From: Gluconobacter sp. P1C6_b
GTDB taxonomy: Bacteria > Pseudomonadota > Alphaproteobacteria > Acetobacterales > Acetobacteraceae
DNA length: 64,000 bases
Assembly: GCF_018811945.1 (NCBI RefSeq)
Contig: NZ_JACRVU010000007.1
Span: 70,198 to 134,197 of the forward strand
Reading direction: 5' to 3'
In this document: in pieces, positions 2,513 to 64,000 of the stretch
Position numbering within the stretch: the stretch's first letter is position 1
Layout of the letters: each line of letters starts with the position of its first letter
Notes under the pieces: model-generated
What the model saw: the letters and a program-made list of their open reading frames with translations, nothing else
The model's database searches: none
What the model was told of the DNA's origin: nothing
Translations under genes and position numbers: made by a program

Positions 2513-3019
2513 ATGCCCGTCATGACAGCTTCTTCCTCCAAAACGGACCTTCAGCCGGGTGACCGGGCGCCGGATTTCACGCTTTCCGCCTCGGGTGGAC
2601 GCACGGTCAGCAGTGCGGAGCTGAAGGGGAAGCCCTATCTGCTCTATTTCTATCCGAAGGCCGATACACCGGGCTGCACCACGCAGGCCTGTGGTCTTCA
2701 GGAAGTCCTGCCGAAGTTTGAGGCCGATGGCCTGACCATCATTGGCGTCAGTCCCGATCCGGTGGCGAAAATTGAAAAATTCGCCACCAAATACGGGCTC
2801 CAGTTTCCGCTGGCCTCGGATGAGGATCATGCCGTCGCCGAGGCTTATGGAACATGGGTTGAGAAATCCATGTATGGCCGGACCTATATGGGAATGGAGC
2901 GCAGCTCCTTCCTGGTGGACGGGCAGGGCATCATCCGGAACGTGTGGCGCAAGGTGAAGCCTGCGGCCCATGCGGCTCTGGTGGCTGAAGCGTTCCGGGA
3001 TCTCTCTTCGGGAGCCTGA
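2513..3019 (+). CDS. bcp: Peroxiredoxin, BCP type (thioredoxin-dependent thiol peroxidase)
   Basis: 168 residues, normal family length. It reduces hydrogen peroxide and organic hydroperoxides using thioredoxin. The peroxidatic Cys is in the PKADTPGCTTQAC motif (C55), with the resolving Cys five residues later (C60), the 1-Cys/atypical 2-Cys layout of the BCP/PrxQ group. GDRAPDFTL near the N-terminus is the usual first strand of the fold. The gene stands between an exported small protein and a large AsmA-type gene, with short gaps on both sides. An oxidative bacterium carrying membrane dehydrogenases would need such a cytosolic peroxidase. An ATG four codons in is an alternative start. Confidence 0.93.
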   Translation: MPVMTASSSKTDLQPGDRAPDFTLSASGGRTVSSAELKGKPYLLYFYPKADTPGCTTQACGLQEVLPKFEADGLTIIGVSPDPVAKIEKFATKYGLQFPLASDEDHAVAEAYGTWVEKSMYGRTYMGMERSSFLVDGQGIIRNVWRKVKPAAHAALVAEAFRDLSSGA

Positions 3020-3078
3020 GGGCTTTCCCCACAAACTTTTACGAGGGAGACAGGCCGGAAACGCGCCGATGACCGTCT

Positions 3079-6000
3079 ATGGCCGTCCCCGACTTCCCGC
3101 GCCCTCCCCGCAGGCGTTTCCATCCTTTCTGCCCGGGGCCGCATTTCCCCCGGCATCTGCATATCGCACGCTGGGCGGCGCTGGCCTGTGTCACGCCGAT
3201 TGCGCTTTTTGCCGCTGCGGGAAGTGTCTTCCTGTGGGAGCTGGCGCATGGTCCGGTGGACATCACGCGCGTCTCGCATCTCGTGGAGCCTGTCTCCATC
3301 GCGGCGGGCAAGCGTCCCGGACATCCGGCCGGCCGTCTGAGCTGGGATACGCTGCGCATCCAGTGGCAGCCGGCCGCGGGCGGCGTTCCCGCCGGGCTTG
3401 TGCTGATGGCGCGGGGGCTGAAGGTCACCCGCTTCGATAATCTGATCGCTGAACGTGCCGACGAGGCCGATGCCGTCCTGTCGCTGAGCGCCCTGTTCGA
3501 GGGTGTGATCGCGCCGCGGACCCTGCGGCTTGAGAACGCTACGCTGGCCCTGCGCCGTCTGCCTGATGGCGATGTGGACATGGATCTGCCAAACCAGAAG
3601 CGCGGCGGTCGGGGTGTGCCGACGCGGCTGGACCGGCTGCGGGCCATTGATGTCCACAATGTTTCCATCACCCTTGCCGGACTGCCGCAGGACCGGACCG
3701 CCGTGATCGGGCCGGTCGAGATGCAGGCGCGCCGCATCCGGGAGGCGCCGCATTCGCCGGATTTCGTCTGGACGGGAACGGCCCGGACGATGGTCATGCT
3801 CGACGGGTTGCGTACGACCCTGACCGCGCAGGCCAGACAGGTCGGGAATACGGGCAGGCTGCATCTGGACAGCACGCCGTTCGAGCCTGCGGAGCTTGGT
3901 GTTTTCAGCCCGCTGGCGGCGGACTGGCATGTTCCGGTGTCGGTCGGCGCTGATGCGGTTTTTGTGCCGCATGGCATGGATGAGCAGCCGTCGGAGCTGA
4001 CGCTGAACCTGACGCTGGGCGATGGGCAGGTTTTCCAGAAAACGGTCGAGCCGATTCATCTTCATGCCGGACAGGCGAGCGTGCATCTGCGGATGGATCG
4101 CCCGGGTCTGGACGGGGGAGCCACGGTTTCGGTGCCGTCTGCCGGGCTGGATGTGGCGGATAACGCGGGTGCGCTGACGCATGTGCATGCCTCGGCCAGT
4201 CTGAGACTGGATAGTCTGCGCCAGCCACGGGTGATGGATGGGGACGCGGAAGCCGGGCTGGACGGGGTGCGCTTTGCGACGCTGGGTTCCATCTGGCCGG
4301 CGAGCATCATCAAGGGCGGGCGGCGCTGGATTTCCCGGAACATCACCGACGGCACGGGACGGGATCTTGAGGTCAGGGCCCATCTGCATGGCGAGCACGG
4401 GCCGGACAGCATCCTGCCGGTCTCGGTTCAGGGGCAGTTGACGGGGCGCGGGCTGACGGTGAACTGGCTGCGGCCGGTTCCGCCAGCGACGGGCCTGGAT
4501 GCATCCCTGCATTTCGACGGGCCGGAGACGCTCGTGATTGATCTGAGCCGGGGTGTTCAGCCCACGGGCGTGAAGGAGAACGTGCTTCTTCCCGACGGGG
4601 AGATCCGGATTGGCGATCTGTATGCCAAGGATCAGACCGGCGATATTTCCACGCATCTGACGGGGCCTCTTGCGGGGTTCATGTCCGCGCTGGCGCACCC
4701 GCGGCTGCATCTTCTGGCGCGGCATCCGCTGCCGTTCACGCATCCGGAAGGGATGGTGGACGCGCATGTGCGTCTGACGCTGCCGCTTGTCGCGCACATT
4801 CCGGACGGGGCGCTTCATGTCTGGACACAGGCCACGTTCTCCGGCGTGCATCTGGGCAATGTGCTGATGGGGCAGCCGGTGGACGGGGCGTCGGGGAAGA
4901 TGTCCGCGACCGAGGATGGGCTGGACCTGACGGGGGACGGACGGCTTGCGGGGATTCCCACGCATGTCGTGCTGCATGAGAACTTTCAGGGCGGGGCGCC
5001 GTCGCGGGTGTTGCAGACGATTGATGCGCGGTCGGTTCTGGACCCGCAGTCCACCGCGAAGGCCCGGATTGCGCCGGGGGGGCTGTTTGACGGGCATGCG
5101 GTTCTGAATGCACATTTCGTGCAGCAGGCCAATGAGATGTCCGATCTGAAGCTGTCGCTGGACATGGCGCAGGCGGCGCTGACAGTGCCGATCTGGGCCA
5201 AGCCGATGGGTGAGCCTGCGACGGCCATGGTGCATATCGGGTTCCAGAAAGGGCGGATGTCGGTTCTGGATGGATTGCAGGCGCATGGGACCGGGCTTTC
5301 CGTAGCGGGGCGCGGCGTGACCCGGGCAGGCAAGCTGACGGGGATCGTGCTTGAGGGCTTCAGGATCGGCCGGACGGAGGGCGATGCGCGCATTGCCCTG
5401 CCGCAGGCCGTGGATCAGCCGATCGGCGTGACGGTCGATGCGGATCCGCTGGATCTGGCGCCGATGTTCGCGCCCCATCCGCCGACAGCGGCGGCGCCTG
5501 CATCGCAGGGCAGCTCGGGGGCGAAGGGTGCCTCCATGGGAGACAACTGGTCCATCAGCCTGAATGCGCCGCATGTTTATTACGGGCCGAAGGCACAGGT
5601 AGGTGGTGTCGTCTCGCAGATCGAACTGCGGAACGGGCATCTGACATCAGGGCGGTTTGCGCTCGATGCGCCGACGCGGGTCCGGGCGGTTCTGGCCGAT
5701 ACGGGGCGCGAGCATCCGTTTGTGCTGGATATCGACAATCTGGGGACGCTGCTTGAGGGCCTGGGGTTGTATGACCGTATCCGGGGTGGGCAGACGCATC
5801 TGGACGGGGTGTTTACGCCCGACGAGACGACAGTGCGGAAGGTGCCGGAAGGTCGGAATACGAAATCGGCCGGGCTGTGGGGCGGGCTGCCGCCTTTCCG
5901 CGGGCATGTGGAAATGGGGCCATCGCAGTTTCTGCGGCCGCCTCTGACGCTGACGGCGGTATCGGACCTGTCTCCGCTGCACTGGCTGACCAATCATCTG

Positions 6001-6462: not shown

Positions 6463-7881
6463 GTGACCGACATGACAGATCTTTTCGGCGGTGCTCCGGA
6501 AGCGAACCGTGCTCCGGGACATGCCGCAGCCCGTGGGCCGTCCCGTGCGCCGGAGAAGATGCGGCCGCAACGCCCCATCGAGGCGCCGCAGGTTCAGCGT
6601 CGGCCGCCGTCACGCACCCAGCCTCTGGCGGACCGTCTGCGGCCGAAGCGGCTGGAGGATGTGCGGGGGCAGGATCATCTGCTTGGGCCTGAGGGCACGC
6701 TCACGCGGATGCTGGAACGGGGTACGCTGTCCAGCCTGATTCTGTGGGGCGGTCCGGGATGTGGCAAGACGACGATCGCGCGGCTTCTCGCAGGGCGTGC
6801 TGGACTGTTTTATTCCCAGATTTCGGCTGTGTTTTCCGGGGTGGCGGATCTGCGGCGGGCGTTTGAGGAAGCGGATCAGAAACAGGCGGCGACCGGCAAG
6901 GGGACGCTGCTGTTCGTTGACGAGATCCATCGCTTCAACCGGGCCCAGCAGGATGGGTTTCTGCCTTATGTGGAGCGCGGGACGGTGGTTCTGGTGGGCG
7001 CGACCACGGAGAATCCGTCTTTTGCGCTGAATGCGGCGCTGCTCTCGCGATGTCAGGTTCTGGTGCTCAACCGGCTGGATGATGCGAGCCTTGAGAGCCT
7101 GCTGCTGCATGCGGAAGAGGAAGTCGGGCGTCCTCTCCCACTTGATCCGGAAGCGCGGGCCAGTCTGCGGGCCATGGCGGACGGAGACGGGCGGTATCTG
7201 CTGAACATGGTCGAGCAGCTTGTGGCGCTTGATCCGTCGAAAGTTCTGACGCCGCGCGATCTGGCGGCGATCCTGTCGCGCCGGGCCATCCTGTATGACC
7301 GGGATCGGGAAGAGCACTACAATCTCATTTCTGCGTTGCACAAATCGCTGCGGGGCAGTGATCCGGATGCGGCTCTGTACTGGTTTGCGCGGATGCTGGA
7401 GGGCGGGGAGGACCCGCGCTACATCGCCCGGCGCCTGACGCGGTTTGCGGCCGAGGATGTGGGGCAGGCCGATCCTTCCGCGCTGCCGATGGCGGTGGCG
7501 GGGTGGCAGACCTATGAACGGCTGGGATCTCCGGAAGGGGAGCTGGCGCTGGCGCAGGTCGTGGTGCATCTGGCGACCGCGCCGAAATCCAATGCGGTTT
7601 ACACGGCCTATAAGGCGGCCCGTGCCCTGGCGCGCGATACCGGAAGCCTTATGCCGCCGTCGCATATCCTGAACGCGCCGACGAACCTGATGAAGGATAT
7701 CGGGTACGGCAAGGGCTATGAATACGACCACGACAGCGAAGACGCGTTTTCGGGTCAGAACTACTTTCCGGACGGGATGCCCAGAGCGTCCCTTTATCAT
7801 CCCACGGACCGCGGACATGAGGGGCGTATCAGAAAACTTCTGGACATGCGGGCCGCCAAGAGGGCATCCCGCGAACCATGA
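6463..7881 (+). CDS. rarA: Replication-associated recombination protein A (AAA+ ATPase)
   Basis: 472 residues. This clamp-loader-like AAA+ protein (RarA/MgsA, related to eukaryotic WRNIP1) acts at stalled replication forks. Walker A GGPGCGKTT is at about residues 96-104 and Walker B FVDEIHRFN at 151-159; sensor 1 is GATTENPSF, and the C-terminal tetramerisation region contains the conserved HNALKSLRGS-like stretch (SALHKSLRGSD). The GTG at 6463 follows a purine-rich site (GGGGAGCGGGAG); an ATG at 6472 in the same frame is an equally possible start. The gene overlaps the start of the pseudouridine synthase gene by ATGA, so they form one transcription unit. Confidence 0.95.
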   Translation: MTDMTDLFGGAPEANRAPGHAAARGPSRAPEKMRPQRPIEAPQVQRRPPSRTQPLADRLRPKRLEDVRGQDHLLGPEGTLTRMLERGTLSSLILWGGPGCGKTTIARLLAGRAGLFYSQISAVFSGVADLRRAFEEADQKQAATGKGTLLFVDEIHRFNRAQQDGFLPYVERGTVVLVGATTENPSFALNAALLSRCQVLVLNRLDDASLESLLLHAEEEVGRPLPLDPEARASLRAMADGDGRYLLNMVEQLVALDPSKVLTPRDLAAILSRRAILYDRDREEHYNLISALHKSLRGSDPDAALYWFARMLEGGEDPRYIARRLTRFAAEDVGQADPSALPMAVAGWQTYERLGSPEGELALAQVVVHLATAPKSNAVYTAYKAARALARDTGSLMPPSHILNAPTNLMKDIGYGKGYEYDHDSEDAFSGQNYFPDGMPRASLYHPTDRGHEGRIRKLLDMRAAKRASREP

Positions 7882-61022: not shown

Positions 61023-63404
61023 TTACAGGGCTGCGCTGAGGCTCAGGAAGAACATGCGCGGCGCGATGGGGTAGGCCGAGAACTGACCCGAAGTCTGGGT
61101 CGCGTTGATCGTGGACCATCCCTTGGTGTTTGTCAGGTTGGTGATGTTGCCCTGGACTTTCAGAGACGCCAGATGCGGGATGTTGTGGAAGGTGTAACCC
61201 GCGTTCAGGTTGAACTGCGCGTAGGGCGCGGCCCACATGTCGTTGGTGTAGGTCGCATAGCGCTTTCCGATGACGTCACCGGTAAACTGGCCATAGGCGT
61301 TGCCCCAGTTGGTGGTGAAGACGAACTTCTCCGACCAGTCCGGCATGCCGACGACGTTCTTGCCAGCCGTATGGATGATGCTGGAGCCCGTGCTGTAGTT
61401 ATCGTTGTAGGTAGACTTGTTGTAGGACAGCGCGTTGTACAGCGAGAAATGCGGGCCGAAATGGGTGGTGAAGGAGAAGTCCATACCATCCGTCGTGACC
61501 GAGCCCACGTTTGCAAGCGTGGTGGCCGAGCCGATGATGGATGACAGGGTCTGCGTCGTCGCAACAGCCAGAAGGCGGTTCGAGAAGTGAACGTGATAGT
61601 ACTCGACCTGACCTTCGATCGCCGTCAGCGGGCCAAGATGGATCTGGCGGTGCTCACGCAGACCGGTCTCATACGTCCATGAGGTTTCGGGCTTGCCGTT
61701 CTTCTTGAACTCTTCGAAGGCCGCCTGGCTGGTGGCGCCCCAGGGTGTGGCGTTGCCGTAACCTGCGTCCTGATAGGAGCGCATGTTTTCCTGGATGTTG
61801 GCGAACCATTGCTCGTGCTTCGTGATGTCCCACACCGCGCCGAAAGCGGGCAGGAACGGCTTGGCGGCGTCGATCTCGCCACCGGGTGCCGTCACGGCAT
61901 AGGACGGGGAGAGCGAGCCCGGCTTCGCGGCGACCGGCAGGGTGCCGTTCGTATAGACCAGCTCGGACTTGAAGCCCGCCATCAGGGAGAAGTTCTTCGA
62001 GATCTGCCAGTTGTCCTGCAGATGCGTGACGAATGTGTTGGTGTAGAAATTGTTGGTGTACTGGTCGATCAGGGCGTTCTGCTGGCGCTCGTAAGGCGTG
62101 GTCGGGTTGTTGGCGTCCAGCGGATACCAGCGACGGGCCTGCGTGTTGTTGTTGCGCTCATACCAGCCACCGACTTCGATCGAGTGCTTGCCGAGATGGT
62201 AGCGCAGCGTGGACATCAGACCACCGCGATTGTCCCAGTATTCGGTGGTCCGCGTGGCATAGCCCGAGCCACCGAAGACGGTGTTCAGATCCTGACCCGG
62301 ATAATAGGCGGCGAACAGCGTCGGCAGACCGGCAGCCGAGATCGGACCGGCCACAACACCTTCACCCAGATCATGGTGATAATAGATGCTGTTATCCCAG
62401 TGCAGGTTCTCGGTGAAATCATGCGTCCATTTGGAATAGGCGAGGAAATCCTCGCGCTGGGCCGCTGAATAATAATTGCGGTAGTTCAGGCCGACGGCGT
62501 TGGCATTGGCCTTGGCATAGCTGAAATTCGGATAGGTGAACGGGCGGACATAAAGACCATAACCGCTCGGCAGTGTGATGCTGTCCTCGTTCGGCTCGAC
62601 CTTCTGGGACCAGTCGAAGAAGGTCGAGAAGTGATCATGCTCGCTGTTGTGCACGAACTTCGCATTGACCTGATAGCCGCCCTGATGACCGGCGAAGTCC
62701 CAGGCGCGGGCATCCTGACGGGAGAAGGAGACATAGGCCGAGTTGCCATTGCCGAACTCACCCGTATCGAGACGGGCGAAGGTGCGGAACGTGGACCAGC
62801 TTCCGAAAACCTGTTCAATCTGCGCCCCGCGCTTTTTCAGCGGGTCCTGCGTCGTGAACTGGAGCGTACCACCAAGGTTGGATGTGGACGCCGTGCCAAG
62901 CGCACCTGCACCCGAGGAGACCGACGCCGAGCCGATGTTCTCGCTGATGGCCGCGCGCTGCGGGGAGAGGCCGTTGTAGTTGCCATAGGCCTGGTCGCCG
63001 AGCGGAATGCCGTCGAGCGTATAGCCGAGCTGGTTCTGGTTGAAGCCATGGACGTAGAGCGAAGAGTTCTGCTCGTTATTGCCCCAGGGATCGGCATTGT
63101 TGAACACGACGCCCGGCAGCATTTCCAGCGCCTTGATCGGGTTCACGCCCGGAAGGATCCGCTGGATCTGGACGTGGCTCAGCCCCTGTTCGGAGCGGGT
63201 GCGGCGTGCGGTGATGACGAGCTGTTCCGTACCGCCGGCCACGGCGTCAACCTTGGCCTTGTGTTTGGTGTCATGTCTGGCGGTGGTGGCTTTTTTCGTT
63301 CCTGTCGTTGCTGCCTCGACAGGATGGGGAAGGGCTGCAGCCAGCGCAAATGGCGAGCAGAAAATGGTCAGAAGCAGGCGGGAACGCAGCAGGTTGCGCG
63401 GCAT
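61023..63404 (-). CDS. TonB-dependent outer-membrane receptor, phosphate-linked
   Basis: 793 residues. Signal peptide to about residue 31, then a Thr/Lys-rich spacer, a TonB-box region near EQLVITARR (about 59-67) and the plug domain (about 68-200, IKALEMLPGVVFNNADPW, LDGIPLGDQAYGNYNG). A 22-strand barrel follows, rich in Tyr, Asn and Gly, ending in a aromatic/Leu-type C-terminus (SPRMFFLSLSAAL). The substrate is not evident, but a Pho box lies 80 bases upstream and glpQ lies 13 bases downstream, so a phosphate-containing compound such as a glycerophosphodiester or phytate is a good guess. GGAAAG precedes the ATG. Confidence 0.9.
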   Translation of the reverse strand: MPRNLLRSRLLLTIFCSPFALAAALPHPVEAATTGTKKATTARHDTKHKAKVDAVAGGTEQLVITARRTRSEQGLSHVQIQRILPGVNPIKALEMLPGVVFNNADPWGNNEQNSSLYVHGFNQNQLGYTLDGIPLGDQAYGNYNGLSPQRAAISENIGSASVSSGAGALGTASTSNLGGTLQFTTQDPLKKRGAQIEQVFGSWSTFRTFARLDTGEFGNGNSAYVSFSRQDARAWDFAGHQGGYQVNAKFVHNSEHDHFSTFFDWSQKVEPNEDSITLPSGYGLYVRPFTYPNFSYAKANANAVGLNYRNYYSAAQREDFLAYSKWTHDFTENLHWDNSIYYHHDLGEGVVAGPISAAGLPTLFAAYYPGQDLNTVFGGSGYATRTTEYWDNRGGLMSTLRYHLGKHSIEVGGWYERNNNTQARRWYPLDANNPTTPYERQQNALIDQYTNNFYTNTFVTHLQDNWQISKNFSLMAGFKSELVYTNGTLPVAAKPGSLSPSYAVTAPGGEIDAAKPFLPAFGAVWDITKHEQWFANIQENMRSYQDAGYGNATPWGATSQAAFEEFKKNGKPETSWTYETGLREHRQIHLGPLTAIEGQVEYYHVHFSNRLLAVATTQTLSSIIGSATTLANVGSVTTDGMDFSFTTHFGPHFSLYNALSYNKSTYNDNYSTGSSIIHTAGKNVVGMPDWSEKFVFTTNWGNAYGQFTGDVIGKRYATYTNDMWAAPYAQFNLNAGYTFHNIPHLASLKVQGNITNLTNTKGWSTINATQTSGQFSAYPIAPRMFFLSLSAAL

Positions 63405-63483
63405 TGAAAGTCTTTCCGGATGGAGAAGAGATCGAATGCGGCGGAAACTAATCTTTCCTTAAAGAACTGCGTGTGAAGCTCCT

Positions 63484-63512
63484 GTGAACGTGTTGTGACA
63501 GAACTGTGACAG
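63484..63512 (-). promoter_or_regulatory. Pho box of the TonB receptor-glpQ operon
   Basis: On the minus strand CTGTCAC (63512-63506), AGTT, CTGTCAC (63501-63495), AACA and CGTTCAC (63490-63484) form three direct repeats with an 11-bp period. Two are identical and match the PhoB half-site CTGTCAT at six of seven bases; the third is degenerate. It lies 80 bases upstream of the receptor ATG, a normal PhoB distance. The promoter's -10 cannot be placed with confidence. Confidence 0.75.
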
Positions 63513-63515
63513 CCC

Positions 63516-64000
63516 TCAGGCGGTCTGCCAGCCCAGTCCGACGATGGCGACGCGACGGCCCAGCGGGGTCTCCTGAAGGACGATGACCTCGCGCTCTTCC
63601 AGGTAGTTCAGCTGCCGACGGGCACGGCCCAGAGAGTGCGTTCCATAGGCGCGGGCCAGGGCTTCGTCGCCCGGGCAGGTTTCGCCGTCGAGTGCCGTGC
63701 GGGCGAGGAGCAGGAAGACGCCCTGCACGTCTTCGGGCAGGGTCGCGGCGATGGCCTGGGCCTGTTTCCAGTCCTCGCTTTCGGAACGCTCGCGGTCCAG
63801 TCCGGCGCGGATGGTGGCCAGCATCCGGTGGAAAGGTCCCAGCTCCAGTACATTGCGTGACAGACCCTGAATCCGCGCCCGGAGCTGGAAGTCCTGATAC
63901 AGGGTGGCCAGCGGCTTGTAGTCCGAGCCTTCCCCGGCCACGACTTCGGCCACCAGCGACCAGAGCTGGTCGGGATCGGCTTCGACGACGACGGCTGCCG
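63516..64000 (-). CDS. Unknown protein, 3' part; winged-helix-like C-terminus
   Basis: The frame is open to the right window edge (minus strand, the readable residues before a possible GTG at 63953 are AVVVEADPDQLWSL), so the start lies outside and the protein is truncated by the window. About 160 residues are visible. They are helical with an Arg/Leu-rich last third (ALARAYGTHSLGRARRQLNYLEEREVIVL) that reads like a winged helix-turn-helix and could be a DNA-binding or ATPase C-terminal domain. I cannot name the family. The Pho box lies 4 bases beyond its stop and points away from it. Confidence 0.5.
   Translation of the reverse strand, partial: AAVVVEADPDQLWSLVAEVVAGEGSDYKPLATLYQDFQLRARIQGLSRNVLELGPFHRMLATIRAGLDRERSESEDWKQAQAIAATLPEDVQGVFLLLARTALDGETCPGDEALARAYGTHSLGRARRQLNYLEEREVIVLQETPLGRRVAIVGLGWQTA

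Follow-up and report, generated by a model that had tools for sequence, protein, structure and literature searches.

The 64,000-nucleotide stretch of Gluconobacter sp. P1C6_b DNA analysed here (the window) carries, in front of a TonB-dependent receptor gene, a short series of CTGTCAC-like direct repeats. The locus raises the question of whether these repeats form a binding site for the phosphate regulator PhoB and, if so, what the receptor and the phosphodiesterase gene that follows it might contribute to the cell when phosphate is scarce.

The preliminary description of the locus reported two CTGTCAC copies and a degenerate third one, spaced 11 bp apart and facing the receptor gene, and the coordinates that it gave, 63484-63512, are exact. 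Its term "triple" box is right as far as these three units go, and it missed a fourth one in the same register, GCTTCAC (63473-63479). The array thus consists, on the minus strand, of four head-to-tail units in an 11-bp register, 69-108 nt upstream of the receptor ATG at 63404 (Table 1). Read in this direction, the order is CTGTCAC AGTT CTGTCAC AACA CGTTCAC AGGA GCTTCAC ACGC AGTTCTT TAAGGAAAGA TTAGTTT. AGTTCTT occupies a possible fifth register, which is half-site-like in the relatives L024, L026 and L028. TTAGTTT, a candidate -10 region whose TAG is invariant in 22 aligned sequences, is found 10 nt past this degenerate fifth register and 21 nt past R4, the usual spacing between a Pho box and the -10 element downstream of it being about 10 bp. 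Past the putative -10 region, between positions 63425 and 63450, the string TAG..T.C.CC...T.CGA is nearly invariant in 22 Gluconobacter and Brytella leaders.

Table 1. Coordinates of the repeat units, of the genes around them and of the comparison loci. Positions are those of the window unless a locus is given.
Feature	Sequence or product	Coordinates	Strand	Score or domain	Remark
Half-site R1	CTGTCAC	63506..63512	-	9.6 bits (genus matrix)	putative PhoB half-site
Half-site R2	CTGTCAC	63495..63501	-	9.6 bits (genus matrix)	putative PhoB half-site
Half-site R3	CGTTCAC	63484..63490	-	1.4 bits	putative PhoB half-site, weak
Half-site R4	GCTTCAC	63473..63479	-	5.5 bits	putative PhoB half-site
Fifth register	AGTTCTT	63462..63468	-	-4.5 bits	possible, degenerate; low confidence
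-10 region	TTAGTTT	63445..63451	-		possible; low confidence
TonB-dependent receptor gene	793 aa, plug and barrel	61023..63404	-	PF07715 and PF00593, above cut-off	
GlpQ-like glycerophosphodiester phosphodiesterase gene	368 aa	59903..61009	-	PF03009, 134.7 bits	
HerA/DUF87-like ATPase gene, 3' end	479 aa in full	63516..63998	-		upstream gene
Divergent pstS and PF07396 porin genes		L098 (C29:11000-20000), 4376-4404 and 4522-4550	- and +		phased Pho units at each
Second pstS, beside an OprB-family porin gene		L099 (C78:50000-62000), 2988-5545	-		without Pho box

A Pho box is defined as at least two direct 11-nt units, each made of seven conserved and four variable bases (PMC4415409). The array fits this definition, with four 11-nt units in which the half-site columns are on average 93% conserved in the 22 aligned sequences and the spacer columns 77%. 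In all Gluconobacter orthologs R3 ends in TTCAC, which is replaced by TTCAT in Brytella, while the TTCAC of R4 is common to 22 of 22 aligned sequences.

A lone CTGTCAC is no evidence of such a site, because the heptamer is common (11 copies in the window, against 7.6 expected). The phased arrangement is rare. CTGTCAC-N4-CTGTCAC has exactly one copy in the 3.39-Mb genome (contig C67), where about 0.03 would be expected. For the three-unit pattern, TGTCAY-N5-TGTCAY-N6-KTCAY, the same 3.39 Mb contain two perfect matches, against about 0.002 expected, and none with exactly one mismatch. One is the receptor site; the other lies on contig C29 between pstS and the porin gene, on the porin side. Scoring the site with a PhoB matrix, a check proposed in the preliminary description, places it first in the window both with a matrix built from 82 half-sites of Gluconobacter porin and pstS promoters, which holds no receptor half-sites (the genus matrix), and with a small matrix derived from E. 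coli promoters. With the genus matrix, the four-unit array reaches 26.0 bits, compared with 18.3 bits for the best of 40 shuffled windows and 7.2 bits for the highest-scoring unrelated array of the window. Taken by themselves, two or three units stay below what shuffling yields (19.1 against 19.7 bits and 20.5 against 22.1 bits, respectively, each time for the best of 40 shuffled windows). Among 1.6 million positions around 80 related receptors, 27 arrays score within 4 bits of the site. All 27 precede a receptor; two lie on the other strand.

The array is also kept across the genus while its spacers drift, so that the loss of the repeats in close relatives, named earlier as a possible refutation, was not observed. 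When 26 genus genomes were searched for the four-unit pattern, allowing up to one mismatch, 37 matches were obtained. Their coordinates place 20 of them at the receptor gene and 15 at the porin gene; the reversed pattern, used as a control, gave none. Outside Gluconobacter and Brytella, a two-unit box (p<0.05, within 250 bp upstream) precedes 27 of 39 testable orthologous receptors, against about 2 expected; these relatives do not count as independent cases, and p was calibrated on random stretches taken from the loci themselves. A typical box from Komagataeibacter is CTGTCATGAAACCTTCAC at -79. In that genus and in Novacetimonas, the receptor and its box are mostly kept and the adjacent phosphodiesterase gene mostly is not. 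Among receptor orthologs that are linked to this gene, several from Acetobacter, those from Neokomagataea and that of L067 have a weak box or none. No box was found, scanning from the true start, before the distant receptors that have no such neighbour (L070-L086 and L088). These are 53-55% identical to the studied receptor and carry an STN domain, and in Gluconobacter they are located behind sigma-factor/FecR genes. Strong four-unit arrays in reverse orientation occur in two Acetobacteraceae, L068 (3881-3920, minus strand) and L069 (3758-3797, minus strand), about 80-120 bp upstream of phosphodiesterase-linked receptors; no divergent gene was noticed next to the reversed array of L068.

The genome encodes the expected regulatory system in one run on contig C1, pstC-pstA-pstB-phoU-phoB-phoR. 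The PhoB protein scores 285.8 against TIGR02154, just below the cut-off of 296.2. Since this cut-off is narrowly missed, the name rests on the score, the gene location and the recognition residues together: at each of the 11 DNA-contact positions compared, the protein has the residue of E. coli PhoB. No strong Pho box precedes pstCAB-phoU-phoBR, though the operon encodes the regulator itself; the best pair upstream of position 7595 (minus strand) in this region (L097, C1:132000-146000) is ATGACATAAATCTTTCAT, with p about 0.06. The comparison promoters belong to pstS (TIGR00975) and a phosphate-selective porin (PF07396), both typical Pho genes, which argues for PhoB as the regulator. In the porin array the units follow one another as strong, strong, medium and weak, as they do in front of the receptor. 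The boxes of E. coli pstS, phoB, phoA and ugpB score 18-22 bits with the Gluconobacter-trained matrix. At E. coli yjdN no box was recognised, and including this promoter only made the small E. coli matrix noisier. The assignment to PhoB made in the preliminary description is therefore supported by the array at the pstS/porin promoter, the agreement with the E. coli boxes, the retained recognition residues and the genus-wide conservation.

The GlpQ-like glycerophosphodiester phosphodiesterase (GDPD) gene begins 13 bp after the receptor gene and is the sole GDPD gene of the genome. The N-terminus of its product resembles a signal peptide and contains RR. Its closest solved relative is E. coli GlpQ (1ydy, E=9.5e-33, residues 24-316), and it reaches 167.9 bits against PRK11143.1, the NCBIfam equivalog model for the E. 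coli type, whose cut-off is 254. Because this cut-off is missed, the product is termed a GlpQ-like GDPD rather than GlpQ proper, so that the earlier label "glpQ" stands for the enzyme family and the nearest relative, but not as an equivalog assignment. Receptor and GDPD genes adjoin each other in all Gluconobacter loci; the pairing extends to Asaia, Neokomagataea, most Acetobacter and several Gluconacetobacter, among others. In three loci, the GDPD frame is split into two overlapping frames (L015:6130-7499, L029:6511-7631 and L064:6467-7259), which suggests a frameshift or an assembly error in those genomes. Neither GlpT, nor a PhoA-family phosphatase, nor a convincing UgpB was found in the genome. 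On the other side of the array, the stop codon of the HerA-like ATPase gene lies 3 nt before R1, and this gene is outside the regulated unit. In the G. frateurii group (L021, L023, L025, L026 and L028, near 3890), the ATPase stop codon lies inside the first Pho unit.

The receptor shares 98% identity with its counterpart in G. oxydans NBRC 14819. It has the plug and barrel domains of a TonB-dependent receptor, a class with a 22-strand barrel, and no sequence match among solved structures. The structure model is mediocre (pLDDT 61) and matches TonB receptors as a fold class only, with PqqU as the nearest by Foldseek; the predicted fold is that of an ordinary TonB receptor and says nothing firm about the substrate. 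The gene context is the main argument for an organic phosphate: besides the adjacent GDPD gene, a phospholipase C gene adjoins a relative of the receptor in L086 (6365-8899, plus strand), and a PhnD/PhnE-like phosphonate ABC transporter is encoded near another in L084 (7271-8985, plus strand). Judged by this context, the receptor probably takes up phosphate in organic form, with phosphodiesters, for instance the glycerophosphodiesters derived from phospholipids, as the likeliest substrates.

Considered jointly, these features suggest, with a probability of about 0.88, that the repeats are a compound Pho box which makes the receptor and the GlpQ-like enzyme a PhoB-activated operon for the import and hydrolysis of organic phosphodiesters; we infer the binding, the induction, the co-transcription, the substrate and the fate of the product. 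The box would comprise two strong and two weaker head-to-tail PhoB half-sites. At low phosphate, PhoR would phosphorylate PhoB, and phosphorylated PhoB would fill the four half-sites in tandem and bring in RNA polymerase at a promoter some 20 bp further on, the -10 region of which may fall within TTAGTTT. A single transcript would then encode both proteins, the receptor importing the phosphodiester and the GlpQ-like enzyme cleaving it in the periplasm.

One alternative reading grants PhoB its binding site and holds that binding hardly affects transcription, or that the receptor responds mainly to another signal such as iron. The solved TonB receptors that match the predicted fold are mostly iron receptors, some confirmed Pho boxes are without clear phosphate control (PMC4415409), and numerous PhoB sites of E. 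coli leave transcription unaffected (PMC10294691). The inert E. coli sites are, however, mostly intragenic, whereas the Gluconobacter array is intergenic and promoter-proximal, lies at a fixed distance from the receptor gene in 22 sequences and stands beside a phosphodiesterase gene, and this alternative appears improbable. Slightly less probable again is that another regulator of the OmpR/PhoB family occupies the array and responds to a signal other than phosphate. Related regulators of this family bind tandem repeats too, and the genome has about ten full-length response regulators with a PhoB-like domain build. Yet the sole other perfect match to the three-unit pattern in the genome is at pstS/porin, and the E. 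coli PhoB boxes score like the window array. ChvI was considered as a binder and rejected, its published motif, TTGC-N3-GCAA, being different (PMC9731502).

That the repeats arose as a chance string, or reflect the way the coding sequence of the upstream gene ends, could be proposed from their closeness to the ATPase stop codon, which in the G. frateurii group even falls within R1. Against it, the half-sites are conserved while the spacers drift, the reversed pattern is absent from the 26 genomes, and boxes are present in Komagataeibacter and Asaia too, where the surrounding sequence is different. The whole proposal is thus extremely improbable, chance being ruled out by the four-unit score, the rarity in the genome and the lack of reversed matches. 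The compound Pho box remains the preferred reading, and it can be compared with known systems.

Like the Pho boxes of E. coli pstS, phoA, phoB and ugpB, of which that of pstS is multi-unit, the array has 11-bp tandem units with a CTGTCAY core; it differs in its gene-proximal units, which are of the CTTCAC/GTTCAC type, and in what it would control, the genes of a TonB receptor and of a GlpQ-like enzyme. In Alphaproteobacteria, TonB receptors under PhoB control are known from Caulobacter crescentus, where they are thought to import alternative phosphate donors, as stated in an excerpt of PMC11208175. Caulobacter belongs to another bacterial family, and the excerpt makes no mention of a receptor/GDPD pairing. 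The Pus system of Flavobacterium is a phosphate-depletion-induced TonB transporter adjoining periplasmic phosphodiesterases (PMC8115612). The gene order in Gluconobacter is similar and its induction is predicted, but Pus is a SusCD-type system of Bacteroidetes with a SusD lipoprotein, while in Gluconobacter a single TonB receptor accompanies the GlpQ-like enzyme. In P. aeruginosa vreAIR, PhoB binds a Pho box before a receptor-like gene (PMC4971064), as it presumably does in Gluconobacter; VreA, in contrast, has no barrel and is part of a system for sigma-factor signalling and not of a scavenging operon. The literature searched holds no description of the receptor/GDPD pair in Gluconobacter. 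Judged from its sequence, the site is almost certainly a textbook Pho box, a known type of switch, with the receptor/GDPD pair as a new example of a target.

More tentatively, and with somewhat less than even odds, acetic acid bacteria may possess a dedicated, PhoB-switched TonB receptor that actively imports phosphodiesters such as lipid head groups and is paired with the sole GDPD; with no GlpT, no PhoA-family phosphatase and no convincing UgpB found, glycerol-3-phosphate would then be handled differently from E. coli. If this is true, the pair would be the proteobacterial counterpart of the Flavobacterium Pus systems, and a receptor carrying phosphodiesters would add an organic-phosphorus substrate to those of the TonB receptors of Proteobacteria, which are commonly taken for iron receptors. 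For the Pho regulon of an industrially used genus, the analysis also yields a four-unit consensus, together with pstS/porin and receptor-glpQ as two well-marked targets. In G. oxydans, disruption of the phosphate genes pstS and pstC alters mineral bioleaching (PMC12041372). The studied gene could be GO_19, the TonB receptor gene of G. oxydans B58 whose disruption alters bioleaching.
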